From Peronospora farinosa (taxonomy: Eukaryota; Oomycota; Peronosporomycetes; Peronosporales; Peronosporaceae), in assembly GCA_947646735.1 (NCBI GenBank), contig CANTFK010000785.1, forward strand, positions 124,001-188,000: DNA of 64,000 nucleotides, written 5' to 3'. Positions 1 through 48,123 of this stretch are shown piece by piece; positions within the stretch are counted from its first letter, which is position 1, and the number at the start of each line of letters is the position of its first letter. Under the pieces are notes generated by a model. It made no database searches and was not told the DNA's origin. It was given only the letters and a program-made list of their open reading frames with translations. The position numbers and the translations under genes were made by a program.

Positions 1-885
1 ACAACGCTGAAGGCTATGCATCCCTTTTTAGGAAGCCTAAATTACTACAGCAGGTACATCGAAGATTATGCCATATACGCGTCGATCCTTTACGAACTGA
101 GAGAGGTGGATTTTCACGCTTGGAGGTGCAAATTGAAGTCTAACGAGGAAGTGGCGGCCCAGGAAGACGACGAAGAAAAATGGTCGAAGGTACAAGTAGC
201 GTTTGCCATGCTTAAGAACAAGATTGCTATGGCGCCCATCTTACGACATTTCGACCCAGCTAGAGAGGCGGTCATCATTGTCTACGCAAGTGATTGGGCT
301 ATTTCGGCGTCGTTGGTGCAAAATTACGACGGCCTGTATATGCCGGTAATGTTTACGAGCCGAACCCTCAAGTCAAACGAGGTGAACTATAGCACAGTGG
401 AAAAGGAAGTGCTGGCGTTGTTACGGATATTGGAAACTTGCTTCACGATGTTGGTCACCCGACCTCTCAAAGTTCTGACGAGGCATTCTACACTAGCCTG
501 GCTAGTAAAGTCTTCGGGGTTGCAAGGTCGCTTAGGAAACTGGGCCGCTCTGTTGTCACAGTGGACTTTGGAGATTGTAAAATGCAGGAAAGGCGAGGAC
601 CAGGTACTGGGGGCGTTAGCTGCCAGCATCACGCCTCGAGAGAATGTGGACTCAATTCTGTCGTCAATTGCTCCCAAGAAGCAATCCAGGCAAGTGGTCG
701 ACCTACCGACGCCCACAGTGGAACTAAATGAAGAACTGTATGTGATGAGTTTCGATGGGTCGGCCCGGGTGAAACAAGGGGGAGGTGCTTGCAGCGCTAT
801 TGTGTGGAGACTCCCTGCGTGGACTATAGTTGCAGCTGCATCGAAATATCTCGACAAGTCTACGGTGAATGAAGCTGAATATTAG
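1..885 (+). CDS. pol: Element A pol: RT tail, RNase H and start of second RNase H
   Basis: The frame is open from base 1; the first Met at 16 is internal, not a start. It begins with the RT thumb/connection motif FLGSLNYYSRYIEDYA. A Ty3-type RNase H follows (VYASDWAISASLVQ, then FTSRTLKSNEVNYSTVEKE). A spacer leads into a second RNase H starting at MSFDGSA. The frame ends with TAG at 883-885, directly after NEAEY, whose glutamate is the expected second acidic residue. The next codons (from 886) continue the same domain in the same frame, so one stop splits pol. This is either nonsense decay, a sequencing error or readthrough; decay is most likely. Confidence 0.85.
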   Translation, partial: TTLKAMHPFLGSLNYYSRYIEDYAIYASILYELREVDFHAWRCKLKSNEEVAAQEDDEEKWSKVQVAFAMLKNKIAMAPILRHFDPAREAVIIVYASDWAISASLVQNYDGLYMPVMFTSRTLKSNEVNYSTVEKEVLALLRILETCFTMLVTRPLKVLTRHSTLAWLVKSSGLQGRLGNWAALLSQWTLEIVKCRKGEDQVLGALAASITPRENVDSILSSIAPKKQSRQVVDLPTPTVELNEELYVMSFDGSARVKQGGGACSAIVWRLPAWTIVAAASKYLDKSTVNEAEY

Positions 886-888
886 GGC

Positions 889-2928: not shown

Positions 2929-3121
2929 CCGGCGGTAGCAAGTTTCTTGGAGGGTGGACCGATTCCCTCAATGGTCGGCCCAGCCCCTCGTTGGAAGACT
3001 TGGGTCGCCTGCGGGGAGGCCTTGAATTTCCAAGAGTTAAGGGTATAGGAGAATGGAGAACAAAGGAGGGCGATTACCAAGATCAATCAGAACAGAAGAA
3101 GGTTCATGTTCAAGGGAAGAC

Positions 3122-5336
3122 CTAAACGGATGGCACAAACTTGCCTTTGAGGCGTGGAACTACAGCGCCAGGATGGGGCACAGAAGACAAACGATACTGG
3201 GTGAGCCACGGCCACGCGGAATCCGACACCCGAAGGGCCTCAAGCAGGTCGACCGGGTCCGACCCCTCTTCACGACCAGGGAACCAATAAACCACACGGC
3301 GGGTTCGAGGAAGATGACGGAAGAAGAGGTCCAGGAAGATGTCGAGATCGCAGTGGCCCCTGCTCATCCCAATGAAGATAAGGTTGACCACCTCCCGCCA
3401 AGCTCGAGTTGCCCGACTCCGACGCTTCTTCCGCGCGTTGTAGTAGGACGCGAGGAAAGAGTTCGCTCGCGCTTGGTCCTTGGAGATCCACAAGCAGTGG
3501 TTCGCCTCCCAAAGAGCTTGACTATGCTCTTCGTCAAACTGGATGTAGGCCGCTGCCAACTGGGCGAACCAGCCAACAGGTCGGAAGGACACGGGCTGCA
3601 TGGGAACACGAGCTTCCACCCAAGGTTCCGCCGCTAGCAATCTCTGGATCATTGGAGGGTTCATCAACGACCTCTTCCATTTGGGGGGCCGGTCGAGGTT
3701 TCCGTCCGGAGGGCCAAACCAACCCCAAGGTAGATCCAGCTGGTCGACCAAGTCTATGGAAGACATTGTAACAATGCACCACAAATTGACCAGGTCGACC
3801 GGCCAAGGTGCCACTTCCGCAGCGGAAAAGGTCTTCGACTGCATGTATCCGGGGATCATGGCGTCTCTGGGAAGCAGGCTGGAGTCGGCCAGAAGGGGCG
3901 AAGTGTTGTCCGCGACAGGAGGCGCACTCTTGTTTTTCTCCGCAGACGACTCGGTCTCCGAGTCCGATGTCCCGAACATCGCCCGTTTCAACGAGAGGCC
4001 GGTAGCCGAGGTGGTCCTCAATGGAGGAGTGGACGTCGACGGAAGACGTACAGGGTTCGCGCTGGCAGGGCGCCGACTAGCAGAACGAGACTTGGCCAGA
4101 GCCGCCCGAAGGGTCTCGCTGTCGTCGCTGAGGTCATCGTCCGAAGACTCAAGCACGACAGGGGAACGACCACCAGAGACCGCAGACGGTGGTATCGCAG
4201 AGGCGTCGGGCTTCGAAAGCCTGGAGGTTTTGGCGGGTACCCGGGGTGACGGCCGCCGGGACCGTTTACCAAGAGCTTTCGCCGGCCGCGAAGGGGAACA
4301 TGCGGCCGGGGGCGAAGCTGCCGAAGAAAGTAGCTGGTCCTAGAGGTGGCCCGTCAGAGAAGTCGACATGGTCGAGCTCTGCGGCGAGAAGCGAGTACCG
4401 GCTTCGGATGTGGTCGACCTTCCATCGCAGACGGTCCACCAGTGCAGTCTCGCGCTGGAAAGCTTCGCGAAGGTGGGCCACCAGCCGGGACTTGTCGCGC
4501 AGTGCCTCCTCCAACCGCTCAAAACGAGTGGCCAACAAGGCGGCCGAAGGGGGAAGGACACCTAGCCGACCCTCGAAGTCTTCGATGCGGCGGGAATGGG
4601 CGTCCGCGAGAGCTTGCAATTCCCGTAGAGCTGCCCGTACGTTAACGGGTACGGAAGACGGACGGTCAACCATGGGGGTCGGCGTGACAGGAGCATCTGC
4701 TGTCTCGACAGGAGGCAAAGCGGTGGAAACAGGAGAGCTGTGAACGACAACAGTTTCAGAAGCACTCAACGGCGAACACACCGGCCCGGGAGGGTCGGCC
4801 AAGGACGCCTCTCTACATGGAGAGGCAACCGAAGGCGCGACGGCGATTGAAGTCGGCTCCTCAGATGGTGGGTCAGCGGACGGTGGGTCAGCAGATGAGG
4901 GGTTAGAACCAGGGGTGATTGAAGGCGCTGGGGCGACCGAGGTCGGCTCTTCAGTCGGTGGATCAGCGGACGGTGGGTCAGCAGACGGTGGATCAGAACC
5001 AGGGGAAGACATGGCTGGACAGACACGAGTTAGAGGTGGAGGAGCTACAAAGGGGACAATGAAGGACCTACGTGACGAAGGAAGTGAAGACATGCGCGTG
5101 CTCAATCCGTTGCACGGTTGAGCAAGTGCAGGGGGCGGCTGTGGTGAAGTGCTAATTTTGTGATATGAAGGTCCCGGACTCCAGTTGGATTCAGAGTATA
5201 GGCCGTGGGTCAGGGACAGGGGACCAGAGAGACAGGGGTCTCGAAGGGGAGCGACCGTTGAAGGAATCCGCAGGATCCGCCGAAGAAAAATCAGTATCAG
5301 GGTACCGGTTAACCGGTACCAAAGGGAGTTGATCAT
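3122..5336 (-). pseudogene. Element A antisense ORF, coiled-coil protein
   Basis: A long ORF runs opposite to pol between pol and the 3' LTR. It starts with ATG at 5336, seven bases inside the inferred LTR edge, and runs to 4266. The protein continues from about 4330 to 3122 in another frame, and the copy in element C shows that one extra base near 4330 causes the shift. Order: Pro/Ser-rich repeats (DPPSADPPSADPP), a predicted coiled coil (RELQALADAHSRRIEDFEG through RLRWKVDHIRSRYSLLAAEL), a Ser/Asp-rich patch (DDDLSDDSETLRAALAKSRS), then a conserved C-terminal block with VAPWPVDLVN, PVSFRPVGWFAQLAAAYIQF and YRLSSVPHPGAVVPRLKGKF. No known family was recognised. The same blocks recur in elements B and C, so this is an element gene, not a chance frame. 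Confidence 0.75.
5301..5329 (+). promoter_or_regulatory. Element A polypurine tract beside a 20-bp palindrome
   Basis: Bases 5301-5320 are a perfect 20-bp palindrome (half-site ggtaccggtt). Next comes the purine run aaagggag, the expected primer of plus-strand DNA synthesis, immediately before the inferred LTR start tgatcatgg at 5330. Element C has the same arrangement on the other strand near 17502-17530, with one palindrome base changed. The palindrome also lies in the first codons of the antisense ORF. Confidence 0.5.
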
Positions 5337-6249
5337 GGCCGCTCATTGATCGACCTGGCCCCTCGTTGGTAGACCCGGGTCCCTCATTGGTCGACCCGGT
5401 CCCTCATCGGTCGACCTGGGTCCCTCATTGGTAGACCTGGGTCCCTCATTGGTAGACCCGGTCCCTCGTTGGTCGACCCGGTCCCTCATTGGTAGACCCG
5501 GTCCCTCGTTGGTCGACCCGGTCCCTCATCGGTCGACCTCAGCCCCTCGGGGTTCAGCCACTCCGGACCAGTTAATACAAGGATCAGACTAGTCGACGCA
5601 AGGAATCAGAGCTTCAGGCAAGGATAGAGTAAAGGAGGTAAAAGGATAGGACTATATTAAAGACTACTCAATTTGCGATCTACGTGGCACGACTCCGTCA
5701 CCCAAGAAGGACTTGTTCTAAGTTACTCACTGTTCCGGGAAGGGATATATTTTGGCCCCCCGTCGAAGACAGTTGTGTAGCGAAGTTCAAGGGCGAATAG
5801 AGCTCCAGGATATATTTGGCCTGTGAGCTCGTTCGAGTAGCAACACCCCCCCCCCCCCAAGACCCGCTATCGGAAGCGGTCTCCCTCACCTCAAGGTCCG
5901 GGAGCAACGTAAAGGTCAGGTGGTTAATACCCCTGAAACAAGAAGGAAAAGGCCAGGGACGACAAGCGCCCCTGAAGAATTTGGCTCTAAGTCCACTCTC
6001 GACAAGGTCGACCTACCGGCCCACCGAGTGAAGCATATCCACTCGAGGCCCCCCAGGTCTACCTCCCTCAAGGCAGACATCTACATCGTCACCAAGTCCT
6101 CCGAAGAGTGCAACCCGCCAGCCGACGGGTACACAAGGTGAGAGAAGGTTCATACGCGGCATCGGGGTACCCCCTCCGACAGTCGGCAGTCCGGCACAGT
6201 GAGTGGTTTGGGGTCTCATCATACAATTTTGAGAACCCACTCCGCCACA
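5330..6249 (+). repeat. Element A 3' LTR
   Basis: The LTR begins with TG after the polypurine tract and ends ...CCACTCCGCCACA at 6249, matching the ends of the C and B LTRs. Its first third is a minisatellite. The last part holds a block around 6110-6249 (gggtacacaaggtgag, then a hairpin-forming end) that is conserved with element B's LTR. Element C carries an inverted copy at 16673-17505. No second A LTR is present in the window, so the boundaries rest on cross-element comparison. Confidence 0.75.
5340..5560. repeat. Minisatellite in the A LTR (20-22 bp units)
   Basis: About ten head-to-tail units read like ggtccctcattggtcgaccc, alternating between tcgacc and tagacc and between attgg, atcgg and gttgg. 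The same unit occurs in the C LTR (about 17380-17500) and in the C spacer between pol and the antisense ORF (19780-19904, continuing at 33089). Unit number differs between the A and C LTRs and explains most of their length difference. Confidence 0.85.
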
Positions 6250-8046
6250 CAAGCGCTTCTTAGCTTGCGTGGATGGGTCCTTGAGATACCCCATCAGGCG
6301 TACAAGATCATTATAGTGTGCGCATGCCCTTCTAATGTCGTCGAGTAAGCTCGACGACAAGACGCTGGTACTCAGCGTGGTGACAGTGGTGTTCACATCA
6401 CTGTCGGATTGCACAGGCCGCTCTAGGTCAGGCCGACGTGAAAGAGCATCGGCGACGACATTAAGTCGTCCCGGCTTATACTCCACGGAGAAGTCGTACT
6501 CCGCGAAGAACGACAACCATCTCGCCATTCGTTGCGAGAGGTGTGGACTATTTACAGCCGTGCGTAGTGACGCATGGTCTGTATATACAATGAACGGTCT
6601 ATCTCCTAAGAGATAGACGCGAAACTTAGCCAGTGCATACTTCATGGCAAGGAGTTCCTTGTCATGCACCGGGAATTGCGCTCGGCCGGTTGCAGCTGAC
6701 GAGATTGATAACAGACGACACGCTCTGCGCCGGCTGTATCATATTGCATCAGTGCGCAGCCGATTGCAAAATCAGGCGTCATAGACCACATGAAATGGTC
6801 TGTCTTGATCGGAAATCGCCAATAATGGCGATTGCATCAAGCTTTGCTTAATACGTTCAAAGGAACGCTGACAATCAGCGTTCCAGTTCCACTTTACATT
6901 TTTCTTGAGTAAACAAGAAAGATGTACTGTCATTTCGGCGTAATTGCGCGAGTACTTGTGCAAGTACGCTGCTAGCCCAAGGAACTTCCTTAGTCCCTTG
7001 ACATCAACTGGCACTGGCCAGTCGGTGATAGCCTTGATCTTCTCTGGATCAGGGCGTACGCCGTTCTTTCCGACGATGCACCCAAGAAGTGGTATTTCAC
7101 AAGCCGCAAATATACACTTCTTGAGGTTGGCGTACAACTTATGCTCGCGCATAAGTGTAAGAACCTTACGGACGTGGAGTCTATGGACTTCTACGTCTGT
7201 TTTCCCGTCCATAGCCCGACTATGGACGAACACATCATCGAAGTAACTCGGTGCGAATTCGCGCACCGGTCTCAATAGATGTGAGACACATCTATTGAAT
7301 GTGTCTGGTGCATTACTGAGCCCTTGCGGCATCATCAACCATTCCCAGAGCATACCACTGGGAGTGCTCACTGCTGTGTACGGGATGTCCCGTTCACGTA
7401 TTAGGATCTGATAGAAACCATCCATCAGATCCATGGACGAAAAGATGGTACTCTTAGACATACCATCTATGATTACGTCCTTTCTCGGTATCGGCGTTTG
7501 CGCCGGTATCGTTGCAGCGTTCAACTTGTTGAACGCGTGCACTATCCGCCACCCTCCTGTGGCCTTACGCACACAGAAGGTCGGAGAGATGTGAGGTGAA
7601 GTTGACTCCCTCACATGGCCCGCTGCTAGGCGATCGGCAAAGAACTTGTCGATCGCCTCGACCTGTTCCCGAGGCAGTGGACACTGCTTCATGACACAAT
7701 ATTTTGTGCCAGGAACAAATTCGATCTCGTGTCGAGTACCTTTATCCTTAGGCAACTCGCACGGAACGGATTCAGGGAATACATCCTTGAATTCGACCAA
7801 ATCCTTGTACAAAGGATTTGACTTCAGCGACTCCCAGGATTGCGATGTATATCGTTCAATTCGAGTCTTCTCAACAAGGACACTTTCGTCCATTGGGGAG
7901 ATGCTGAGAACCCGTTCGTTCTCGGCAAAAAATGTTGCTGACCGAATGTGAGTCATGTACTCGTCCTCTGCGACGAGCACACAGATCTGCTTGACTTTTC
8001 CACTACGCAGACCACGCAAGAACCTTTTAGGTTCTAGCGTAGGCAA
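6250..8046 (-). pseudogene. pol: Element D RT and RNase H, frameshifted and truncated
   Basis: RT runs from 8046 to about 6772, with [66 protein letters not shown] and the catalytic SYFDDVFVHS intact. RNase H begins FHVVYDA at 6772, where the frame meets a stop. The right sequence (DFAIGCALMQ, then QSRQLQPAERN) continues in another frame and returns by 6669 to MHDKELLAMKYALAKFR and TDHASLRT. Two small indels therefore damage RNase H. At 6250 the reading frame runs into the LTR of element A just before integrase would begin. The copy is non-functional as it stands. Confidence 0.85.
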
Positions 8047-8109
8047 CGGAGTTATCTCTGAAGTTAATTTCGGAGGCGCGATCAGATCAAGCGTATAAGC
8101 GCCTACGTT

Positions 8110-9017
8110 TTATCCGTCATTAACCAAGACGTTCAACGTCTCGGTTACTTCCTGGGGACTTATTCCCTCAAGGCACTGGGGACTTATTCCCTCAGTGATT
8201 GTATCCTGGCGACATATTCTCGCAGGCTCGATGGAACTTGTTCCATCGACTTCCTCTAGCTGTGGTAGCGCAACCACAGCGAGATCCTCTATCATCAACT
8301 CTCCAGTTGATCTAGGATAACCGTGTTGCCGCTTCTGGGCAACCGGTTTACTCTTCGGTGAATTTTGCCCTCTAGGCGAGCATTCATGTCCCGGTCCACT
8401 CGACTTATTCGAGTGGTGGACCTTCGGCGCTGCCTGTGCTTGTGCACAGCCGACGGCAGCTTGCTCCACAGCGTGACGGATTGTCAAGCTGAGTTCTTGT
8501 GCAGTCGTACTAACGACCGAACCACAAGTGAGGCCATCACACTACATTCACACGCTTGTGAACGCTCCAAGACGTTTATCAGATGGCCATCTGATGAACA
8601 AGCGGCAGACATCTTCACGGCTCGATGCTGCCAGCTGACCCATGACTCGTACCTTCTGAGCCATGGTAACCCTAGGATGACATCAAATTTGTCATCCAGA
8701 TCAAGTACGATGAAACCATCATCGTACTTTTTGCCTTCAAGCGTGTAGTGAATTCCCACTACACGTTTCTTTACTGTTACGGATGCGCCAGTTGCAAGGC
8801 GCACCGTCATCCTCGTTGGAGGGGTCTCGCGCTCAACATATTTGAGCCTACGATCATCTAGCGATTGGCGTCGAACAAAATTGTTCGAAGCCCCACAATC
8901 AACTAGGGCGCGAAGTGACATGTTCTTTGTCACTTCGATCTTCAAGGTGATGAGGGATACCTCATCACTGGGAGCGGCAACACACAGTGACTGTGTGTTG
9001 GGAGCAACCTTCGTCAA
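8110..9017 (-). pseudogene. pol: Element D aspartic protease and PR-RT linker
   Basis: Bases 9017-8484 encode a retropepsin-like protease with the active-site motif ALVDCGASNNFVRR and the later flap-end motif VILGLPWLRRYE. There is no ATG, so it is presumably made from a gag-pol product. Its frame is -1 relative to gag, as in element E. It stops at 8484; the frame 8487-8110 encodes a low-complexity linker (HSNKSSGPGHECSPRGQN, duplicated GISPQ) before RT. A frameshift near 8485 and a stop near 8110 break the path to RT, so pol is not continuous. Confidence 0.7.
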
Positions 9018-9067
9018 GAGTCCCGCGAACTATCTTGACGTTGCTGGATCAGTAGGGCGCTCCGCCC

Positions 9068-10252
9068 CTACTGACCCCGACCGTTTTTTGATGGTCCACC
9101 ACGTATTTGCGATTTCGCAGCAACGTGGGACCCACGTCTCTGGCCCTTCTTGGCAGACGGTTGATCGTCACTCCCAGTGTTACGAGACACTGGGCGTGGG
9201 GCACTACACTCATAAGCGTAGTGGCCCAACTTCTGACAGCGATTGCACTTTTGCAATCGCTTGTACCCTGGAGAGCGAGGTCGCTCGCTCTCTACATAGG
9301 AAAGGTTCATTGGCTCTGGACCTCCGCCCTCCTGTCGTCTCGGTGGACGATAGGATCCCGAGTGGACGTGAGCCTGTTGTAGGCTAAAGTCCTCCTGTTC
9401 CGCTGCTGAGATCGCTTGATCCAGCGATTCTAGTTCCAAGCGGAACAGGTGGGTCTTGACAGGATCATCTGTCAGACCCTTGATGAACACAGTAACCTGC
9501 GTGTGTTCATCGATTGGGTTCAGTACGATACAGCTAACGAGGTATCGTACGTGTTGGGCGTAAGCGTGTATATCACGCTTACCCTGTTTTAAATCCAGGA
9601 GCTCAACCCGAGCCCTGAATTCGTCGCGAGGCGGTTCAAACGTGTGTTTAAGCCGCGCCTTGAAGACGTCATACGTTGGGAAAACGTATGGGTCGTGCAG
9701 TTTGAGCCCTAAGGCCCAAGCTTTGGCACGTCCAGCCAAGTTCGACATGGCGAACTTGACCTTCATCGCATCGTCATCGATGCGACGAGCTTCAATGGCA
9801 TCGTCGAGCTCGACGAACCACCTTATCAAGGAGTCTCTTTCGACTGCCTTGTACTTGGAGACATCAATCTTCAAGGACTCGGGTCGACGCGCATACGCCG
9901 ACCCGGCAGCAACAGCACTAGCCTGCTGTTGTCTCAACAGTTCAAACTGTTGAGCACCCTGCTGCATCAACAAGTCAGCTTGTTGAGCGCCTTGTTCTCT
10001 CAACAGTTCAACCTGTTGAGAACCTTGCTTCTCTAGCAAGGTGAGTTTCTTTACAACTTCGTCAAGTTCATGTTGTATGAACTTGGCGATGGTTGCATGT
10101 TGGTCGTCTCCGCTAAGAGAGAGCAACATGGCACCAACGGCAGGGTTGCCGATGGTTTCAGCCATACGCTGAACCGCATTCCATTCGAGGTCACTCAAAT
10201 GGCGGAAATCATCACGCGTTGCGTGATGAAGTTTATCACCCGCTGATTCCAT
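9068..10252 (-). CDS. gag: Element D Gag polyprotein
   Basis: The first ATG is at 10252 (MESAGDKLHH); the frame is open further upstream but without ATG. The protein has a Gln/Leu-rich repeat segment (LLREQGAQQADLLMQQGAQQ), a retrotransposon gag core (LIRWFVELDDAIEARR, NLAGRAKAWALGLKL, FKARLKHTFEPPRDEFRAR) and one CCHC zinc knuckle near the end (CNRCQKLGHYAYEC, spacing CX2CX4HX4C). It would form the particle and bind element RNA. The frame is intact in this copy. The coding sequence is an almost unbroken chain of short perfect stem-loops; the Gln (CAA/CAG) and Leu (TTG/CTG) codons supply many of the arms. Confidence 0.88.
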   Translation of the reverse strand: MESAGDKLHHATRDDFRHLSDLEWNAVQRMAETIGNPAVGAMLLSLSGDDQHATIAKFIQHELDEVVKKLTLLEKQGSQQVELLREQGAQQADLLMQQGAQQFELLRQQQASAVAAGSAYARRPESLKIDVSKYKAVERDSLIRWFVELDDAIEARRIDDDAMKVKFAMSNLAGRAKAWALGLKLHDPYVFPTYDVFKARLKHTFEPPRDEFRARVELLDLKQGKRDIHAYAQHVRYLVSCIVLNPIDEHTQVTVFIKGLTDDPVKTHLFRLELESLDQAISAAEQEDFSLQQAHVHSGSYRPPRRQEGGGPEPMNLSYVESERPRSPGYKRLQKCNRCQKLGHYAYECSAPRPVSRNTGSDDQPSAKKGQRRGSHVAAKSQIRGGPSKNGRGQ

Positions 10253-10281
10253 AGCGGATGGTGCGGTGGTCGCTGAACGGA

Positions 10282-10297
10282 CCACTAAGTGCTACCA
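10282..10297 (-). promoter_or_regulatory. Element D primer binding site
   Basis: Two bases after the 5' LTR the minus strand reads TGGTAGCACTTAGTGG. A primer site beginning TGGTAGCA fits the 3' end of an initiator-Met-type tRNA (ending TGCTACCA). Element E has nearly the same site. The tRNA assignment is inferred from the first eight bases only. Confidence 0.65.
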
Positions 10298-10299
10298 GG

Positions 10300-10755
10300 T
10301 GTAATGGGGCACCCTCCGACTAAACTGATTACAGTATAGTCTACTTTCACTGATTACAGTGAAAGCAGGTGCCTCAGAACCTCACGTAAACGTGAGCAGA
10401 GGAAGCTTATCAACTAAACAAACGCTTAGTTGAAAGGGAAAAGAAAACTGTATTTAATATAGTTAATTATCTAATAAAACTAATCTGTTATAACCTATGT
10501 TAACTATATTAAACTACAACTATGTATATTGACGACTTGCCCTCCACTCATTGCGCGCGTCCATCGGTCATTGGTCAGCGCGTTGGTTGATATGATGGCC
10601 CATATCAACCAATGAGAGGGCATCTCCAACTTCAAGGAGATCTAGGAACAATATTATTAGAAAAGGTAATATTGCCAAAATATTATTAGTTATAATATTT
10701 TTTTATTGACACTTCACATAAGTGTCAATATTATGTAACGGGCTCACCCGTTACA
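10300..10755 (-). repeat. Element D 5' LTR
   Basis: This 456-bp LTR reads TGTAACGGG...CCCCATTACA on the minus strand. Its inverted partner is at 15337-15793 with only about eight differences by eye. It contains several short perfect inverted repeats, among them tgacactt/aagtgtca, ctcacgt/acgtgag and ctttcactg/cagtgaaag. The outer flank is cccag (10756-10760). Confidence 0.9.
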
Positions 10756-11279
10756 CCCAGCCGCTAGTCAAGCCGCCACGATGTACGCCGCCACGCCCGT
10801 AGTCCCAAAGTTCCGGCGTCTCCACTTAGGCACGCTCGCGTAATCCTTTTTATCCGATGCAAGCAACAAGAGACCCTCCCTGGGTGGGACCTGTTGACAA
10901 GATAGACATCCACGCCTTTCAAGCAAAAAAAAACTACCACTGGACACCGCCGTCGACTGGCCCCAGACCTGCACCTCCTTCGCGTGTGTGCAAAGGATCG
11001 TGCAGCCTGGATGGCCTTCAGCGCGGCGCTTATAGCGCGCGCTGCTTAATGGACCCTGGCGAGAGTAGAGAGAAATGTTGAGAATGAGAGATAATTTGAC
11101 GCATGCGGAAGTTGAGCCACTTTGGTGGCAAGACGGCTCGCGTAACGCGTTTACATTACATTAGGCACAAGTCGACACGTAATCAAGTCAGCATTACACA
11201 CAAAGACTATAAGTAGTTTTAAAGGTTTTACTGCAAGTACTATACTTGTTAGGTACAGCGTATGCTGCAATTGTCAGGT
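10756..11279. other. Intergenic, no gene recognised
   Basis: This lies between the D LTR and the end of the USP gene and should include the USP 3' untranslated region. Short open frames (for example 10857-11081 +) show no recognisable domain. The first five bases, cccag, are the putative target duplication of element D. Confidence 0.6.
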
Positions 11280-13538
11280 CTAGGCCGTGCGCTGCCGCTT
11301 AACATCATTTTTCTTACGCAATAAAGTCGTTTGAAAGACGTTCGTACGACCTTCGTTCAGAACAAACTCCCTGCGCTTCCTAACCTTCTTCACCTTGCCC
11401 GTGTCAAGATTCTCATCCCAGTAGTCCTGGCGACCGACGTTGCGGTGTTTCCATTCCTCCTGCTTCAAAGCATTCAGTACCCGATCGTGCTTTGCAGCCA
11501 ACTCTTTGTCAGCCATCTCATGATGTGGCACCGCGTCGCTACTGCTTGTCGTCTTGGAGGACTCGACGTCCGTCTCGCCAGCCCATTTGTCCACTTCACG
11601 ACCAAAAAGCGCCGCGGTTCGTACACCCACTTTCTTATAATGCTGTGGGTCAAGTGGAACTCGTCTAGTACTTGTCGGTTTTACTAATGAAATGACAGCA
11701 TCTTTCGTCAGTGCGTCTACTTCGGGATCAATTGGTAGCTCGTCCACCGATCGAGTCATGAACAGACGCGGGCAAGTTTTCCACGTTGCCAATCTATACT
11801 TATACAATCGACCAACACGACCACCAAAGCTAGACGTTAATGAGTGCTTCATTCGGTGACGGGCAGCAAAGGTTAATGGAGACACTGACGGCATTGACGT
11901 GACTTTAAATGTCACTACCGCCTTAACCTTTTCCGGAATCACAACCAGGGGTTTGTCAACGTCGGTAGCATCAATCGGATTAGCCACCGTCGTCTTTAGA
12001 CTGGCGAGAAAGCCATTCATGTCCAATTCCTTCGTTTTCATCATTACTGGTTTTGTCATTTTCCCAGATACTTCTTCAAATTGTTTCGTCTCCATCAATT
12101 CTTTAGGCTTTTTGAGCGTAGCTTCTTCGTATTTCGGCTTTGGACGTTCAGATGGAGGTAACACTCGCGAGTAAAACAACATGTACGCCTTTTGCTGTAA
12201 CACAGTGTCTACACTCACCCAGCGCACAGAATCATCGTTCATTTCGTACCATTGACTGGACGATCCTTTCACAAAGGCGTAGTAATGTCCACAATCCGTA
12301 GAAAATCCAGCATGGACCAAAACTGCATACAATTCGTATTTTGTACGTCCACGACGACGATCTTCGCATGTTTTACTCATTCCTGGCGCAATGTCAAGTA
12401 CACGAGGAAACTCGATATGCCGCTTGATTTTACCAAACATGTGGTCAAACCTCTTTAACTGAATCACTAAAACGTTCGGGCCCTCAGCAATTGTCAGCCC
12501 CTTTTCGGCACGACTTGGTTTGCCGCAACTAGAACATTTCCACGCATTGCGGTCATCCAATTTTTCAATGGCCGTAAAGTGTCGCAACGCACCTTTGATA
12601 CTCTTGACACCATTGGAAATTTCCAACGACAAGTCTAAAAAGTCGTCAAAACGTTCCGAAATATACCCGCATTTTGCACATTTAAGCAAACTTTTCAGTT
12701 TGCCACCAAATACGCGATGCACAAATGTTGTAGATGCTGCTGAATCACTTTCACTTTTGATGTGAGCTTTTCGTAAACACGAACGTTGCATTGAATCCAA
12801 CAGCAACCGAAAAAATTCATGCGAATCTTCCTGTCGTCCAATACGAAAACCTTTGGAAAGGTGACGAACATTCATCACCAATTCTTTTGGTTGCAATACG
12901 CGCACGGTATTGTTGCCATGCACGGAGTGCAACAGTCTCGACATAGCACGAACACTGCAAAACCCACCATCATTCTCATTGCCACGAAATCCATTTTTAC
13001 CCCCAACCTTCTTACCATATTTAAATGACGTGTTGTTGCTACTGGACGGTAATGCACCTCCGTTGAACGACGCAAAAACCTCCTTGTCCAATAGGAGCTG
13101 AGCAAAACACGGAGTGTAGGTCAGACACTGCAACACAGAGTTAAGGTAACATGTGTTACCGAGATTGGCAAAACCTGGACCGATTTTCTTTGAGTATTGC
13201 CAGGTTACCACTCTCTCAACTGACTCGACAGTAGTCAATTGTTTCGTTTCTCTTGTCTTGGATTTCTTGTTTTCAGTTGAGTTGCCATCCAATCGACCAA
13301 TCACACGTACGTTCTTGGCCCGAACGAAAGAAATGCGACGTTCATTTACTAAAACAACAGCCGATTTGCATTGCACCTTGAATGGAAGCGTGCCTTTGGC
13401 TGAAGTTAAAGCGTCAGTTTCGTCTAGAGACTTCACGTCATGCACTGCTACTTTTGCAGGTTCAAAGACCGAGGAAGGAAATGATGGTGATCGAACCGTC
13501 GGGGTCAGCTTTGGGGCATGTGCGGCCATAACCAGCAT
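11280..13538 (-). CDS. Ubiquitin-specific protease (USP/UBP, USP36-like)
   Basis: A 752-residue intronless protein that should remove ubiquitin from substrates. The catalytic domain starts near residue 119 with the Cys box GPGFANLGNTCYLNSVLQCL (nucleophile Cys130). The zinc-ribbon half-sites CAKC and CSSC follow, then NVLVIQLKRFDHMFGKIKRH, and the His box TDCGHYYAFVKGSSSQWYEM with the later DDSVRW. The domain ends at YMLFYSR. The tail of about 270 residues is basic (KKVRKRREFVLNEGR). Domain layout and basic tail resemble the nucleolar USP36/Ubp10 group, but the exact orthologue cannot be fixed. The start MLVMAAHAPK is the first ATG; a second ATG lies three codons on. It is the only host gene here without sign of duplication or hairpin tiling, and looks intact. 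Confidence 0.92.
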   Translation of the reverse strand: MLVMAAHAPKLTPTVRSPSFPSSVFEPAKVAVHDVKSLDETDALTSAKGTLPFKVQCKSAVVLVNERRISFVRAKNVRVIGRLDGNSTENKKSKTRETKQLTTVESVERVVTWQYSKKIGPGFANLGNTCYLNSVLQCLTYTPCFAQLLLDKEVFASFNGGALPSSSNNTSFKYGKKVGGKNGFRGNENDGGFCSVRAMSRLLHSVHGNNTVRVLQPKELVMNVRHLSKGFRIGRQEDSHEFFRLLLDSMQRSCLRKAHIKSESDSAASTTFVHRVFGGKLKSLLKCAKCGYISERFDDFLDLSLEISNGVKSIKGALRHFTAIEKLDDRNAWKCSSCGKPSRAEKGLTIAEGPNVLVIQLKRFDHMFGKIKRHIEFPRVLDIAPGMSKTCEDRRRGRTKYELYAVLVHAGFSTDCGHYYAFVKGSSSQWYEMNDDSVRWVSVDTVLQQKAYMLFYSRVLPPSERPKPKYEEATLKKPKELMETKQFEEVSGKMTKPVMMKTKELDMNGFLASLKTTVANPIDATDVDKPLVVIPEKVKAVVTFKVTSMPSVSPLTFAARHRMKHSLTSSFGGRVGRLYKYRLATWKTCPRLFMTRSVDELPIDPEVDALTKDAVISLVKPTSTRRVPLDPQHYKKVGVRTAALFGREVDKWAGETDVESSKTTSSSDAVPHHEMADKELAAKHDRVLNALKQEEWKHRNVGRQDYWDENLDTGKVKKVRKRREFVLNEGRTNVFQTTLLRKKNDVKRQRTA

Positions 13539-13907
13539 TGGGATTAATGTGCCCAGCGACTGGAAGTAAAACCTGACGACTGGTTGGTCTGAAACGCGCG
13601 AATGGATGAGTCCGTTTTTTTTACCTAGAAAAATGGGTCAAAAAGATAAAGTAGGTACGAAATGATTTAGCCAATGGGTTGCTAGTTGCATGACTCTGAA
13701 AAATGGCACTAAAAGCGATTGTAAAATACGAGTTAATCTTCAAGATTCAATGCTAAAAACATGACGCCTACTTTTTAAGCGCAGCCTCGTTTTATGCGTC
13801 TACAGCGAAAGATGCTAAGCCATTGCTGGTGTAAGTCTACCGAATACATTTTGATTCTTCTTTGGATACTGCTGGCGCTGCAGGTTTTCCAGTGTCAACA
13901 TTGTAAT
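13539..13907. other. USP upstream region
   Basis: On the minus strand a weak oomycete-initiator-like stretch (actcatccattcg, near 13598-13612) lies about 60-70 bases before the USP start. No other element was recognised. The stretch may also hold the end of the fragment at 13908-14110: after the stop at 13908 another frame reads on as NYNVDTGKPAAPAVSKEE, so a frameshifted C-terminus is possible. Confidence 0.3.
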
Positions 13908-14110
13908 TTAGTGAAGTGTCAAGACCTCTTTTCGACTATCGCCTGAATCTACTAAGTGTACTAAACAATCATTGATCCATTGAAACCCTGCAAGACCTGC
14001 TGGTTTGTAAGCATCAACCATCGTTTTCAGATCTTTTTCATCATTGCGTAAACATCGTTTATTCATAAGCTCGTGGAGTGTCTCCGATAGAATGCACCAT
14101 TTTCTATCTG
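13908..14110 (-). pseudogene. Unrecognised C-terminal coding fragment
   Basis: The minus strand reads about 66 codons ending in TAA at 13910-13908. It has balanced, protein-like composition: KWCILSETLHELMNKR, then DEKDLKTMVDAYKP, then GLAGFQWINDCLVHLVDSGD. An in-frame TAG precedes it near 14115. The only ATG would give about 52 residues. No family was recognised. It may be a last exon or a relic of a neighbouring gene broken by the rearrangement near 14242. Confidence 0.3.
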
Positions 14111-14431
14111 TATGCTAGGTCAAATTTCAGTCTCATCCGCCGGTCTATCATTGAAGGCTTCCTACTGCTAGAAAAAATGTGCTTGTGTTTCCGTTTGCAT
14201 TTTTGCACCTCCTATCCCTTCACGCATTTCAGAAGAGATGCGAGCCCTCCACCGGGGCTCAGTAAGGAGGTACGCCTCCTTAGGCGCTCTTGACGAGGTG
14301 CTCAGGCACCCCGGGCATGGGTCGCCACAAGAGAGGCATAACAGGCCTGCCTCTCTAGATAAACGGTGCAAACGATAGCATGCACCGGACGTACTTCGTT
14401 TCTCAAACTTATTGCGGCTAGCAAAAAGTCT

Positions 14432-15301
14432 TTAAAACCAAGCCTCTTTCCCAACGTTTAAAACGTTGGTGATAAACGCGTTCCAAGATTGTAGGAACGC
14501 GTTGGCCTCACGCTTCTTGTGTGGGCCATACCATCGATGTTCAAGGAACACATCGATGTAATAATCGTTCTCAGTGCGAAAGTTTTTCGCACTGGCGTCA
14601 AGGCCATGAAGCTTTGACGCATCAAACAACGGTATGGGGAAACGTTCGTTGGTCTTTCCAGACCAACGATCAAGCAGATGCTTAGGTAGCATCCATGGCT
14701 TGCGATCAGGAGCAAGACGCAATACGTTGCGGTATAAAGCCTCCTGCGTGGTGTCAACAGAAGTACCGACACCACGAGAATTAGTGTCAACAGAAGTACC
14801 GACACTATGAGCATTGATGTCAGTAGAAGCACTGACATCACCCTTACGGTCCCCACCCGAGTCACTATCCTTCGACTCGTTTGGCGAGTCGTCTGATTCA
14901 TCAGACGACCCGAACATTTCACGGTACACTGATTCACTCAATGTACCACGATCCCTCTTCGTAACATTAGACGACGAGGTATCACCCTGGAAAGAGCCCG
15001 GGAGTGGAACAGGTGACTTTGAGCCGGATGCGTCATCCGACTCACTAGAGTAGTCAACGACTAACTCTTGGTCAACTTCTTCACGTGGCGAAGCGCCACG
15101 TGAACCTGCAACAGGCGTTGCAGGCTGATGTTGACTTCCAGCAGACACATTAGTGTCTGCTGGCTGAGGCTGTGAAGCCTCAGTAGCGGCTGCACGCCTG
15201 TGTGCAGCCGAGCTCTTGGCTGCCTTAGCAGCGACGCGCATTGACTTTGTCATAGCGTAATTGTTGAATGAAAGAAAATTCAACAAGTGCTCCTTTCCCA
15301 T
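14432..15301 (-). CDS. Element D antisense ORF
   Basis: A 289-residue ORF lies opposite to the element's coding direction, starting with ATG at 15301, about 36 bases from the LTR. It has an Ala/Ser/Gln-rich N-terminus, an acidic Ser/Asp-rich middle (ELVVDYSSESDDASGSKS, then SSDESDDSPNESKDSDSGGD), a repeated GTSVDTN motif and a more globular end (KPWMLPKHLLDRWSG, then RFPIPLFDASKLHG). It matches no known family. Position and acidic start (VDYSSESD against AVDYESDT) recall the antisense ORF of element E. Much of its DNA consists of adjoining perfect inverted repeats, up to 11-bp arms (15080-15104). Confidence 0.6.
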   Translation of the reverse strand: MGKEHLLNFLSFNNYAMTKSMRVAAKAAKSSAAHRRAAATEASQPQPADTNVSAGSQHQPATPVAGSRGASPREEVDQELVVDYSSESDDASGSKSPVPLPGSFQGDTSSSNVTKRDRGTLSESVYREMFGSSDESDDSPNESKDSDSGGDRKGDVSASTDINAHSVGTSVDTNSRGVGTSVDTTQEALYRNVLRLAPDRKPWMLPKHLLDRWSGKTNERFPIPLFDASKLHGLDASAKNFRTENDYYIDVFLEHRWYGPHKKREANAFLQSWNAFITNVLNVGKEAWF

Positions 15302-15320
15302 AGTCACTAATGTGACTGTT

Positions 15321-15336
15321 GGTTGAGGGGGGGGGG
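15321..15336 (+). promoter_or_regulatory. D-type polypurine tract
   Basis: The sequence ggttgag followed by a run of g abuts the LTR start at 15337. It is the expected plus-strand primer and shows that this LTR is a 3' LTR read on the plus strand. Confidence 0.7.
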
Positions 15337-15793
15337 TGTAACGGGGTGAGCCCGTTACATAATATTGACACTTATGTGAAGTGTCAATAAAAAATTATTA
15401 TAACTAATAATATTTTGACAATATTACCTTTTCTTATAATATTGTTCCTAGATCTCCTTGAAGTTGGAGATGCCCTCTCATTGGTTGATATGGGCCATCA
15501 TATCAACCAACGCGCTGACCAATAACCGATGGACGCGCGCAATGAGTGGAGGGCAAGTCGTTAACATACATAGTTGTAGTTTAATATAGTTAACATAGGT
15601 TATAACAGATTAGTTTTATTAGATAATTAACTATATTAAATACAGTTTTCTTTTCCCTTTCAACTAAGCGTTTGTTTAGTTGATAAGCTTCCTCTGCTCA
15701 CGTTTACGTGAGGTTCTGAGGCACCTGCTTTCACTGTAATCAGTGAAAGTAGACTATACTGTAATCAGTTTAGTCGGAGGGTGCCCCATTACA
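15337..15793 (+). repeat. D-type 3' LTR
   Basis: This 457-bp LTR runs from TGTAACGGGG to CCCCATTACA and is the inverted counterpart of 10300-10755. Its first bases form a perfect hairpin with arms tgtaacggg and cccgttaca. The right flank is ctggg. Confidence 0.9.
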
Positions 15794-16672
15794 CTGGGGG
15801 TGAGAGCGGCAAGAGAGAGAGGTTTGTGAAGGGAAAGGGCCGTCCAAAACTGACGGATGCCGCGGAAGCATCCGTCAAAGGCATGAGCTAGCTTAAAGCT
15901 AGCTCAAGCCTTCCGGGAGGGCGTTATTTCAACCCGACCAGGATGATTTGTGCCTATTACCAATATAAAAAGGGCAAATCTGATGAAGTTTTCACAGCCA
16001 CTTGGTCGTTAGAGCGACAGTCGGAATAACGTAAGCAATTGAAGGTGATGACGAGCTGCAGATACAACACCTGTACTGTTTGCTGACGACAGACACATTT
16101 GATAAAGACCTGCAAGTCTGGAACATGATGATATGACGCTTGATTACATGACGCCCGATTTAGTTATCGTCTGGCCACAGATGACGATAACTGAGAGTTA
16201 TACAATAGCATCACTGATGATATTTTTAACGTGACAATGCTAGTAGCAACCGTAGTTTAAAACACAGACCTAAAAGCTGGACTTCGAAAAATGCAACAGC
16301 ACATTCACATTAATGAGGATGACGCCAATCTGGGACTAGGCGTCATCAAAGAACGTCAGTCAGTTACATCATTAAGCGAGATTGAAATAGTAGCGATGCG
16401 CATGTGCAGAGATGACACACATAATTACATACTAAACAATCAGTCGTTAGATTTATATTTAGTTAAATCTTGAATGTACATCAGTCTTGAATTTGTTAAC
16501 TACCTCTCACTGCGCGCAAGAAGCTGATAAGATTCTGCGTGTCGTAGGTGTATCCCTTGTTTAAAAAGTTCGGTGCGCGGTTCGCTTTGGTGAACGGAAA
16601 CTGTTGGTGCGACCGCTTTAGTGGTCGACCAAACACCTCACCACCGCGCACGGAGGTTAGACGGTTTGACCG
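15794..16672. other. Unassigned stretch between the D and C LTRs
   Basis: No gene is recognised; a 60-codon frame at 16291-16473 (+) has no known motif. Two strong inverted repeats near 15853-15912 (gacggatgc/gcatccgtc and tgagctagctt with its complement) and looser ones near 16590-16665 resemble the style of D and E, so part may be debris of another such element. A tataaaaagg string sits near 15965. Confidence 0.35.
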
Positions 16673-17505
16673 CGTGGTGGAGTAGGCTCTCAAAATTGTA
16701 AGGTGAGACCCTAAACCACTCGCTTTGCAGGACTGTCGACTGTCGGAGGGGGTACCCCGATGCCGCGTATGAACCTTCTCTCGCCTTGTGTACCCGTCGG
16801 CTGGCGGGTTGCACTACTCGGAAGACTTGATGAAGATGTAGACGTCTGCCTTGAGGTGGGGGGCCTCGAGTGGATTTTCTTCACTCGGTCGGCCGGTAAG
16901 TGGCCACTCGATCGACCTTGTCGAGAGTGGACTTAGAGCCAAATTCTTCAGGGCCGCTTGTCGTCCCTGGCCTTTTCCTTCTGTTTCAGGGGTATTAACC
17001 ACCTGACCTTTACTTTGCTCCCGGACCGTGAGGTAAGGGAGACCTCTTCCGATAGCGGGTATTGGGGGGTGTTGCTACTCGAACGAGCTCACAGGCCAAA
17101 TATATCCTGGAGCTCTATTCGCATTTGAACTTCGCTACACAACTGTCTTCGACGGGGGGCCAAAATATATCCCTTCCCGGAACAGTGAGTAACTTAGAAC
17201 AAGTCCTTCTTGGGTGACGGAGTCTTTGCCACGTAGATCGCAAATTGAGTAGTATTTAATATAGTCCTATCCTTTTAACTCCTTTACTCTATCCTTGCCT
17301 GAAGCTCTGATTCCTTGCGTTGACGGGTCTGATCCTTGTGTTAACTGGTCAGGAGTGTCTGAACCCCGAGGGGCCGAGGTCGACTGACGAGGGATCAAGT
17401 CGACCGATGAGGGACCCAGGTATACCAACGAGGGACCGGGTCGACCGATGAGGGACCCAGGTCTACCAACGAGGGACCGGGTCGACCAATGAAGGTCCAT
17501 GGTCA
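16673..17505 (-). repeat. Element C 3' LTR
   Basis: This is an inverted homologue of the A LTR at 5330-6249. The outer end reads cgtggtggag on the plus strand, where TG...CA ends predict tgtggtggag, so one terminal base seems mutated. The inner end is ccatggtca next to the polypurine complement ctcccttc. It carries about five minisatellite units near 17380-17500. Confidence 0.72.
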
Positions 17506-19600
17506 ACTCCCTTCGGTACCGGTTAACCAGTACCCTGATACTGTTTTCTCTTTTGTGGGTCCTGCAAATTGTTTTACGCCAACGTTCGCTCCCCTTCGAG
17601 GCCCCTGTCTCTCTGGTATCTTTTCCCGGACCCACGGTATATACTCCGAAGCCAGCTGGATTCTGGGGTCCCTATATCGCAAAAACAGCACTTCACCACA
17701 GCCGCTCCCTGCACTTGCTCAGCCGTACAAGGGATTGAGCACGCGCATGTCTTCACTTCCTTCGTCACGTAGGTCCTTTACTGCCCCCTTTGTTATCCGT
17801 CCATCTCTAACTCATGTCGTGCCAGCCATGTCTTCCCCTGCTTCTGACCCACCATCTGCTGACTTACCGTCCGCTGACCCACCGTCTGAAGAGCCGACCT
17901 CGATCGTCCCCGAGCCTTCGGTTGACCCTCCATTCGAAGAGGCGTCCTTGGCCGACCTTCCCGGGCTGGTATCTTCACCGTTGAGTTCTGCCGAAACTGT
18001 CGTCGTTGACAGCTCTCCTGTTTTTACCGCTTTGCCTCCTGCCAAGACGGTAGATTCTTCTGCCACGTCGGTCTCCATGGTTGACACTCCGTCTTCCGCG
18101 CCAGTCGACGTGCGTGTAGCTCTGCAGGAACTGCAAGCTCTCGTGGACTCACAATTTCATCGCATAGAAGACTGCGAGGGTCGGCTAGGTGTCATTTCCA
18201 CTTCGGCCACCTTATTGGCCACTCGTTGTGAGCGTTTGGAAGAGACGTTACGCGACAACTCCCGGCTGGTGGTCTAACTCCACGAAGCCCTCAGCGCGAG
18301 ACGGCACTAGTGGACCGCCTGCGATGGAAGATCGACCACATTCGAAGCCGTTACTCGCTTCTTGCTGCAGAGCTTGATCACGTCGACTTCTCCGATGGGC
18401 TACCTTCGGGACCAGCTTCTCCTTCGGCAGCTTCGCCCCCGGCCGTATGTTCCCCTTCGAGGCCGTCGAAAGCTCTTGGTAAACGGTACAGGTGGCCGTC
18501 ACCCCGTGTACCTGCCAAAGTTTCCAAGCCTCCGAGGCTTGACACGTCCGCAATACCGCTGTCGGAAGTCTCTGGTGGCCGCTCTCCTGTCTTGCTGGAG
18601 TTTTCGGAAGACGACCTCAGCGACGACAGCGAGACACTTCGGGCGGCGATGGACAAGTCTCGTTCTTCTAGTCGGCGCCTCACCAGTGCAAGCTCTTAAC
18701 GTCTTCCACTGACGTCCACTCCCCCATTGAGGACCACCTCGGCTTCCGGTCTCTCGCTGAAACGAACGATGTTTTGGACGTCGGACTCGAGACTGAGTCG
18801 TCTGCGGAGAAAGAAAAGAGCGCGCCCACTGTTGCGGACAACAATTCGCCCCTTTCGACCGACTCTTGCTCGCTCCCCAAGGATGCCATGATCCCAGTTT
18901 ACATAAAGCTGAAGACCTTCTCTGCCGCGGAGGTGGCTCCTTGGGCCGTCGACCTGGTCAATTCTTGGTGCATTGTAACAATGTCTCCAAAAGCCTTGGT
19001 CGACCAGCTGGATCTACCATGTGCTTGGTTCGGTCCTCCGGACGGAAACCTCGACCGCCCTCCCAAATGGAAGAAGTCAGTGGTGAACTCCCCGATGATC
19101 CAGAAAATGCTGGCGACGGAACCTTGGGTAGCAGCCAGTGTTCCCATTCAACCCGTTTCCTTCCAACCTGTTGGCTGGTTCGCCCAGTTAGCGGCGACCT
19201 ACACACGGTTTGACGAAGAGCATAGCCAAGCGCTCTGGGAGGCGACCCACTTCCTGTGGATCTCCAAGGACCAAGCGCGAGAGAACTCTTTCCTTGCGTC
19301 ATATTATAAAGCGCGGAAGAATCGTGGAATCGGGCGACTCGAGCATGGCGGGAGGTGATCGACTTTATCCTCGTTGAGATGAGTAAGGGTTCCTGCGTTC
19401 TCGACATTTTCCTGGACCCCTTCTTCCGTCATCTTCCTCGAACCCGCCGTGTAGTTTACTGGTACGTGGTCGTGAGGAGGTGTCAGATACAGTTGACCTT
19501 CTAGAGGCCCTTCAGGTGTCGAATTCCACGTGGACGTGGCTTTGTAATATCGATTGTCTTCCGTGCCCCATCTTGGAACTTTAGTCCCGCGCCTCATAGG
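17499..19600 (+). pseudogene. Element C antisense ORF, decayed
   Basis: This is homologous along its length to the antisense ORF of element A. The ATG at 17499 matches the A start, but the frame shifts before 17570. The pieces are 17570-18277 (Pro-rich region and coiled coil), 18310-18699 (RLRWKIDHIRSRYSLLAAEL, then SEDDLSDDSETLRAAMDKSR), 18774-19358 (VAPWAVDLVNSWCI, PVSFQPVGWFAQLAATYTRF) and a last part to about 19600 (FFRHLPRTRRVVYWY). At least three frameshifts and several stops make it a pseudogene. Its value is that it fixes the ancestral frame and confirms a single long protein. Confidence 0.75.
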
Positions 19601-19739: not shown

Positions 19740-19904
19740 CTTCTATACATCGGACTCGTGAAAGGTCGAGGTCTTTCCATAGGAGACCCAGGTCTACCAG
19801 CGAGGGACCGGGTCCACCAATGAGGGACCAGGTCTACCAATGAGGTCCCGATCATGTTTACTTATGAGGGACCAGTTCTACCAATGAGGGCCCGACCAGG
19901 TCTA
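19740..19904. repeat. Element C spacer minisatellite, left part
   Basis: Units such as gagggaccaggtctaccaat repeat up to the insertion point of element B and resume at 33089 (tctaccaacgagggacc). The unit matches the LTR minisatellite of A and C, so the antisense ORF of C is bracketed on both sides by the same repeat. Confidence 0.7.
19901..19904. other. Target-site duplication of B, left copy (tcta)
   Basis: tcta precedes the B 5' LTR and is repeated at 33089-33092 after the 3' LTR. Four bases is short and the site lies in a repeat, so the support comes mainly from the clean continuation of element C. Confidence 0.6.
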
Positions 19905-46121: not shown

Positions 46122-46759
46122 TGTAACGGGGTTACACGACGGTTGTAACGTCTTTCCGAGAGTTTACGCTTAAACTCTCCTTTGTATTGCATATAATGCA
46201 TTATTATACTTCTCGTTAGAGAGGTATTAAGTATGAGCGTTAAGATACGGTATTCGGTAATACCGTATCTTACCGATTAGGATTCGATAAATCGATAACG
46301 CTCCATTAAGTACATCATACACAGATGTTTAGACGATACGTCGTTCAATAGCAAAGTCTGCATATAACAATTACTACTATAGTAATTAATCTTGTGTAGG
46401 GTACTTAGAGTAGGACTATTCATAATATCTTAAAGCATAAATAAAATCAGTTCTCCTTTTGAGTTTAAGACCACAAGTCGTTCTGACTTGTTCTCTTGTG
46501 CACTTCGTGCGTTGGTTCTCTGAACCCTAAGCTTCTAGCTTGCTCTTGCACTCTGTGCGTTGGTTCTCTGAACCTTAAGCTTATTGCTTGCTGACTAAGA
46601 GTCCCTCCTACTTCCTTAGAAGAGGGTGACTTTAACATCGAATACTTAGTTCCTTAGAACTAAGTGGCTTTTAGCCTTAACTCTATTTAGTTCTCTCAAA
46701 CTAAGAGGCTTCCAGCCGAAAGTCTTCCTCTGGCTAAAGAGCTGTGCAGCTCCGCTACA
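46122..46759 (+). repeat. Element E 5' LTR
   Basis: It runs from TGTAACGGGGTTACA to GCAGCTCCGCTACA, 638 bp, the same length as the 3' LTR. It contains a perfect hairpin with 13-bp arms (aagatacggtatt at 46242-46254 and its complement at 46259-46271) and others such as gagagttta/taaactctc and cttagttc/gaactaag. Confidence 0.95.
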
Positions 46760-46761
46760 CT

Positions 46762-46775: not shown

Positions 46776-46800
46776 GTCAATCCTACACCTGAGTCTTTAA

Positions 46801-48116: not shown

Positions 48117-48123
48117 AGTTCCG

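Follow-up and report, generated by a model that had tools for sequence, protein, structure and literature searches.

Can the coding sequence of a transposable element be made to fold back on itself almost throughout, and what would bring this about? The question is raised by a stretch of 64,000 nucleotides from the oomycete Peronospora farinosa (contig CANTFK010000785.1, positions 124,001 to 188,000; hereafter, the window), which carries a long terminal repeat (LTR) retrotransposon, D, crowded with short perfect inverted repeats (IRs). A preliminary description of the window had given coordinates for 14 pairs of such repeats, in D and in the LTR of another element, E, and all are indeed perfect IRs, 7 of them longer by 1 to 2 bp per arm than reported and none shorter. 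In RNA viruses, RNA structure throughout the genome has been linked to persistence, but the manner of its benefit is not settled. All structure considered here is sequence-derived, in the form of perfect IRs and predicted folding energies. With a probability of roughly one half, we propose that the RNA of the D clade has been selected, mostly through synonymous choice, to fold into short hairpins, which would limit double-stranded RNA (dsRNA) and silencing.

Perfect hairpins tile retrotransposon D, coding regions included

By its domains and repeats, D is a Ty3-type LTR retrotransposon. Its gag, protease, reverse transcriptase (RT), and RNase H domains were found by Pfam and its LTRs by blastn, as in Ty3/gypsy elements, and its integrase is assigned by homology only, through alignment of the pol3 segment with the integrase-domain open reading frames (ORFs) of elements E (57%) and A (28%). 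Two complete copies are 8.18 kb (L033) and 8.20 kb (L034) long, with LTRs of ~460 bp each. D codes on both strands: gag-pol runs one way and an antisense ORF, aORF, runs the opposite way. In L033, aORF spans 623 codons from stop to stop (L033 886-2757, plus strand) and sits between pol and the 3′ LTR. The window's own D consists of two parts in opposite orientation, which flank a ubiquitin-protease (USP) gene with a UCH domain (11280-13538), and ~2.1 kb of the element is absent. The 5′ part, delimited by blastn to L033 (6250-10755, minus strand), comprises the 5′ LTR of ~460 bp (10300-10755, minus), ORFs for gag (9068-10285, minus; Retrotrans_gag and zinc knuckle), protease (8484-9017, minus), and RT (6772-8046, minus), and part of RNase H. 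The 3′ part (14214-15793, plus) comprises a fragment of aORF (14432-15307, minus) and the 3′ LTR (15344-15793, plus).

Counting as a perfect hairpin any IR with arms of at least 7 bp and a loop of 0 to 12 nt, we found 61 in the 5′ part (13.5 per kb) and 29 in the 3′ part (18.4 per kb). Densities elsewhere are 1.45 per kb in the gap that holds the USP gene (10756-14213), 5.7 in 15794-16673, 3.6 in element E (46122-54140), 1.44 in 1-6249, 0.71 in 16674-46121, and 0 in 54141-64000, and seven window ORFs outside D and E have 0 to 3.7 per kb. The span 9900-15290, previously described as tiled, is so in its D portions but not in the USP gene that it includes. A full D copy contains 136 perfect stems in 8178 nt, with 37% of its bases inside stems. 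Among copies, the number of stems per kb is 16.6 in L033, 15.5 in L034, 14.1 in L046, and 8.4 in L047, and the lower numbers in older copies are expected if the structure is kept only while an element is active.

The arms in D peak at 8 to 9 bp and mostly measure 8 to 10 bp; the loops are mostly 3 to 6 nt long, with peaks at 4 and 5 nt (29 and 24 of the 136 stems). No perfect arm exceeds 12 bp with a loop of up to 12 nt in L033, L034, L046, L047, or either window part; two perfect 15-bp arms with 32-nt loops occur, one per LTR copy. Examples include a gag hairpin with 10-bp arms and a 2-nt loop (9933-9954), an RT hairpin of the longest arm class with 12-bp arms and a 3-nt loop (7272-7298), and two adjacent aORF hairpins of 11 and 8 bp (15080-15124). 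The L033 stretch homologous to the last two is closed by an outer 9-bp stem into a three-way junction, and some D stems enclose two smaller hairpins. As had been proposed, the stems are not one copied repeat: their sequences differ at nearly every site, which speaks against an inserted palindromic repeat family (MITE or REP-like), and the hairpins that recur in the list, inspected by eye, are those of the two LTRs. A miRNA-like or Dicer precursor, or a member of a known RNA family, was likewise rejected, since perfect arms with loops of up to 12 nt do not exceed 12 bp and Rfam gave no match at the gathering score in window positions 6000 to 16800.

The hairpin density of D greatly exceeds that of synonymous codon shuffles, which keep the protein and the codon usage (300 shuffles per segment). 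D coding segments have 12 to 19 IRs per kb versus 0.7 to 1.9 per kb after shuffling. All nine segments, which include some genes twice from two copies, lie above the shuffle maximum, with 8 to 35 stems against means of 0.7 to 2.7. In gag, there are 20 IRs (shuffle mean 1.7, maximum 9), in aORF 35 (mean 2.7, maximum 9), in the protease ORF 8 (mean 0.8), and in the RT ORF 15 (mean 1.2). Under a stricter shuffle that also keeps neighboring bases, seven of the nine remain well above expectation (z = 4.9 to 12.8); this shuffle mixes poorly, retains many of the original stems, and is not a clean null.

Excess folding is equal on both strands of D

Folding energy was compared per 180 nt with codon shuffles and in 350-nt fragments with dinucleotide shuffles. 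Relative to codon shuffles, D coding segments are ~20 to 26 kcal/mol per 180 nt deeper on either strand, and the ORFs of the single-stranded RNA phages MS2 and Qbeta are 9 to 16.5 kcal/mol deeper. Relative to dinucleotide shuffles, the full D copy has an excess of 48.1% in sense and 48.5% in antisense; each of 45 sense fragments is structured (range, 24.7 to 70.8%), and the D parts of the window have excesses of 40.5% and 47.4%. The corresponding values are 32.3% (sense) for Qbeta and 28.0% (sense) and 23.2% (antisense) for MS2. Both kinds of shuffles are exceeded, which supports the earlier suggestion that the whole element is self-paired, and to a degree that codon usage does not produce. 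The excess is 4.7% in the USP gene and 2.2% in L050 1-3000, and it is approximately nil in element A (−0.6%), two further window ORFs (−3.2% and −0.4%), and a Copia element (−0.6%). Five ORFs of at least 250 codons, from three stretches picked by position, and three Copia ORFs show energy differences of −2.1 to +3.4.

No preferred strand was found in D. Unpaired G+C is lowered on both D strands, likewise in MS2 and Qbeta, and less dsRNA forms in Qbeta systems when fewer G and C bases are unpaired (PMC6913131). Strand-equal structure together with reduced unpaired G+C suggests a need to prevent two complementary RNAs from pairing with each other. The G-U fraction of predicted D folds is 0.04 to 0.07, below their own shuffles and most phage ORFs. 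Loop composition in sense (A, 0.31; T, 0.30) is uninformative.

Excess folding is graded across related families

Excess folding is graded across the related families D, F, E, and D71 and was not found in A, Copia, or the other tested ORFs. (D71 and F are labels of this analysis, and the labels B and C on control ORFs are guesses at elements of the preliminary description.) D, D71, and E share 54 to 59% mutual identity over the integrase part of pol, where A reaches 27 to 28%. D71 (L045, on contig C271), with an RT ~71% identical to that of D, has an excess of 10.4% in sense and 11.6% in antisense over dinucleotide shuffles. It looks young: 14 RT matches are identical in score (405.9 bits), and there are several open frames of more than 1800 codons.

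In family F (L036-L044), the excess is 37.4% and 37.1% at two ends (medians, 30 and 28). F has an LTR of ~600 bp, and its antisense ORF, at least 425 codons long, holds 9 stems versus 1.6 and has an energy excess of 17 to 18. Its LTR begins with the same TGTAACGGG as the D LTR, and by this LTR end and the ORF layout we tentatively place F beside D. An old, hairpin-dense LTR piece in the window (16303-16673, plus) is ~76% identical to the F LTR.

Element E (46122-54140, plus) has its perfect hairpins mainly in the LTRs, including one with 14-bp arms, and its excess over 46122-53480 is 12.6% in sense and 17.9% in antisense. The E stem noted earlier near 48353 is present, with 10-bp arms. The claim that E is tiled as D is did not extend to its coding region: four sense ORFs contain 0, 6, 3, and 1 IRs versus shuffle means of 0.8, 1.5, 1.4, and 0.6. 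The ORF with six has z = 3.6, but four of the six belong to one unit of an 87-bp tandem repeat. These repeats, every one carrying an identical 7-bp hairpin, occupy 48556-48831 in the first pol ORF of E.

The antisense ORF of D belongs to a gene family

On sequence grounds, aORF represents a real gene family. It has 189 homologues at E ≤ 0.001, and the named ones among the matches listed are all from Peronospora; one P. matthiolae cluster represents 1335 sequences. The closest proteins are from Peronospora effusa (P0001; 78% over 86% of the query), and those of P. matthiolae are more distant (~44%). The family combines a conserved, CxxC-containing helical region with a coiled coil at the C terminus. 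Comparison with Pfam gave no clear assignment, no Pfam family being matched by more than 2 of 30 homologues. A structure model of a Peronospora homologue (mean pLDDT, 58.7) predicts a helical region at ~300-455 and a coiled coil, and the model has no PDB match under E = 0.001.

Other copies of D and the arrangement of the window

Within the 274 contigs (46.85 Mb) of the genome searched, at least 95 of 150 scored matches are 79 to 100% identical to the D RT. No D relatives were found in the viral contigs or prokaryote genome contigs scanned. For counting, loci were merged where they form one element: L001 and L009 are the D of the window, L004 and L018 belong to L033, L015 is L034, L002 and L011 are one element, and so are L005 and L013. 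The counts of distinct changes given below are the same with or without this merging. At C25:95783-111689 (L033, L005, and L013), two D elements are apparently in tandem with one common LTR, their matches meeting at C25:103500-103960.

In the window, the inverted LTRs and oppositely facing D parts around the USP gene (6250-15793) are a sign of an inversion or another rearrangement after insertion. An inverted duplication of ~3 kb (3283-6248 and 16674-19463, in pieces 81 to 99% complementary) abuts with its inner ends the limits of 6250-16673, so that a large foldback encloses both D parts and the USP gene as its spacer. On the two sides, in inverted orientation to each other, 20/21-bp repeats with units resembling GGTCGACC form arrays (5316-5540, 17357-17499, and 19770-19850). 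The ~500 bp adjoining the D 3′ LTR (15794-16302) carry hairpins of 10 to 11 bp and had no match among the other scored places.

Changes at stems among copies and relatives

If the stems were under selection, changes should be rarer in them and those that occur should tend to be compensated, and both patterns were seen. Distinct changes among D copies number 230 at 2007 stem sites versus 748 at 5233 others (odds ratio = 0.78, P = 0.0014). Where both arms of an L033 stem changed, pairing was kept in 12 of 19 distinct cases, against a mean of 3.0 for shuffled partners (maximum 9 in 200) and 4.0 for slid partners (maximum 7). The counts for other copies are 13 of 22 versus 2.8 (L034), 9 of 16 versus 2.4 (L046), and 2 of 5 versus 0.7 (L047). 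The selection considered in the preliminary description, and the compensatory changes by which it was to be recognized, therefore gain support.

Between families, stem positions turn over. Of 811 aligned D stem bases, 80 fall in D71 stems, where ~72 are expected by chance, and 15 of 800 fall in E stems; changes at both sites of a D stem pair are pairing in D71 in 31 of 94 cases, and in 85 of 331 slid controls. Amino acid identity is the same in stem codons as elsewhere, both versus D71 (139 of 264 stem codons and 473 of 876 others) and versus E (130 of 264 and 403 of 839). The stems, then, did not rewrite the protein.

Competing explanations of the structure

That the stems are a by-product of codon or base composition, from complementary codons such as CAA and TTG, had been offered as a source of the arms. 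We give this hardly any credence. Codon position 1 does face position 3 in 10 of 20 gag stems and 16 of 30 pol1 stems, but this register is not preferred in pol3 (6 of 16) or aORF (10 of 35), and synonymous shuffles, which lose about nine tenths of the stems, rule out a codon-usage artefact; dinucleotide shuffles lose the folding energy too. A mutational process, in which template switching or quasipalindrome correction during reverse transcription writes perfect IRs without benefit, is considerably easier to entertain and still unlikely. Hairpins can arise and be repaired by template switching (PMC8794818), the stems of D are strictly Watson-Crick and strand-symmetric, their depletion of changes is weak once each element is counted once, and a switch in two steps could have produced the LTR hairpin in which three pairs are flipped. 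Its footprint, however, is not above control: when every element is represented once, 2 of the 225 distinct clusters of close changes match the nearby opposite strand (control mean 1.7, maximum 6), in a test of limited power because most clusters probably reflect decay after insertion. Nor is amino acid identity lowered in stems, the loops are concentrated at 4 to 5 nt, and the reverse-transcribed Copia ORFs (all three) and A have no clear folding excess and none, respectively. Template switching, also raised in the preliminary description, thus found no support as the source.

Structure may instead be selected for something other than escape from silencing. Selection on single-stranded cDNA or duplex DNA, for example for the protection or punctuation of reverse transcription, would account for strand symmetry and strict Watson-Crick pairing, and the one-mismatch stems of D hold marginally more A-C than G-T in sense (18 versus 7, P = 0.043), which is G-T on the minus strand. 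This asymmetry is one weak test and is absent from the relatives, where counts are small (A-C to G-T of 3:2 in D71, 1:3 in E, and 1:0 and 0:0 in two F ends), and structure on both strands is also present in MS2, a phage without a DNA stage; we regard the DNA-level explanation as quite improbable. More serious, and doubtful rather than remote, is the explanation that the structure helps to package, compact, or stabilize the genomic RNA inside virus-like particles. All full-copy fragments are structured, the LTR, gag, pol, and aORF regions alike, and the genomes of single-stranded RNA phages are typically structured with a similar two-strand signature. Packaging would need the sense strand alone, yet the excess on the antisense strand matches that on the sense strand, and there is no enrichment of G-U pairs; in packaged yeast Ty3 and Ty1, moreover, stable, highly structured regions make up at most 30% of the RNA, by a different measure (PMC11381356).

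Selected self-folding of sense and antisense RNA remains the most likely explanation of the structure of D. That selection rather than mutation made it we infer from the indirect support given above, and evasion of dsRNA formation and silencing is its presumed purpose. With gag-pol and aORF on opposite strands, sense and antisense transcripts may meet if antisense transcription crosses D. Pre-folding into hairpins of 8 to 12 bp would resist annealing into long dsRNA; the hairpins, mostly below Dicer length, would also hide target sites from small RNAs, and D would be silenced less. In Phytophthora, most feature-assigned small-RNA loci overlap retrotransposons, inverted and tandem repeats yield the most small RNA per Mb, transposable elements are the main source of 25-nt RNAs, and 21-nt RNAs derive chiefly from inverted repeats and certain gene families (PMC3804510). 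Small RNAs of both orientations map along the Gypsy elements of P. infestans (PMC3522703). An analogous precedent for the hiding of structured RNA may be seen in viral transcripts with genome-scale ordered RNA structure (GORS), which escape RIG-I and PKR in fibroblasts, both sensors being vertebrate (PMC3950689). The fuller version, in which a dual-strand-coding clade recoded nearly its whole genome through synonymous codons so that both RNAs collapse into hairpins and evade silencing, we put forward only tentatively and think somewhat unlikely as a whole.

Several observations weigh against selection for short hairpins that limit silencing. G-U pairs are not favored in D, which is odd for selection on sense RNA alone, and two short D segments are not above the stricter shuffle (z = 1.1 and 1.8). 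A few imperfect helices reach 18 to 21 pairs (up to two mismatches, G-U allowed) with loops of 9 to 50 nt; one has 18 pairs and a 9-nt loop, so not every D helix is clearly below Dicer length. E has antisense ORFs yet weak structure, and minus-strand ORFs lie downstream of the unstructured integrase ORF of A; antisense coding was consequently rejected as the sole predictor of structure. The depletion of changes in stems is modest and carried by changes in one element (212 of 888, P = 0.011; 27.7% expected). Counted with one row per element, changes in at least two elements (18 of 90 in stems, P = 0.125) and at least three (6 of 32, P = 0.33) are not significantly depleted. First codon positions show no depletion (0.167 versus 0.156), and part of the depletion may be mutability. 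The compensated pairs, finally, are few, and three come from the single LTR hairpin at 10410-10433, which occurs in two subfamily forms, three A-T pairs being flipped in both arms between them.

Comparison with known structured genomes and implications

GORS is a known class; among the matches listed in the open-access literature searched, we found no report of it in an LTR retrotransposon, nor of such strength. The preliminary description knew of no account of such structure, but pervasive structure has been described in RNA viruses (PMC7642675). D works like GORS without being a member of the group in which GORS was defined. In GORS viruses, as in D, the folding energy of the whole genome exceeds that of randomized controls and arises from consecutive local stem-loops; pairings are poorly conserved between relatives but the property persists, and paired sites are less variable (PMC7642675). 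Unlike those viruses, D is an endogenous oomycete LTR retrotransposon whose stems are perfect and mostly 8 to 10 bp long. The excess is 7.5 to 10.7% in hepatitis C virus and 8.6 to 17.5% in betacoronaviruses, with 23.4% the highest recorded in that source (PMC7642675), versus 48% in D by a somewhat different method.

MS2 and Qbeta share with D the two-strand folding excess and the lowered unpaired G+C on both strands. They differ in having about two thirds of its energy excess and 0 to 6 perfect IRs per kb (13 to 19 in D), and in replicating from RNA to RNA. The palindromes of nematomorph mitochondrial genes are likewise perfect IRs in conserved coding sequence with proteins preserved, but they have a mean length of 43 bp, arms of up to 142 bp, and a mean spacing of 37 bp (PMC6649704); in D, arms stop at 12 bp, loops are mostly 3 to 6 nt long, and there are ~16 stems per kb. 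The SHAPE map of yeast Ty3 genomic RNA also shows a Ty3-type RNA with structured regions, but the stable ones are confined to the fraction given above, and the consulted parts of that source describe no coding-region tiling (PMC11381356).

The structure of D is stronger than both phage yardsticks, and it is found in a genomic parasite. The graded relatives D, F, E, and D71 share one genome, and one silencing environment, with the unstructured A, Copia, and other ORFs, and structure can be tested against small-RNA load and copy number within that genome. D shows how far structure can bend a coding sequence without a cost visible in protein identity.

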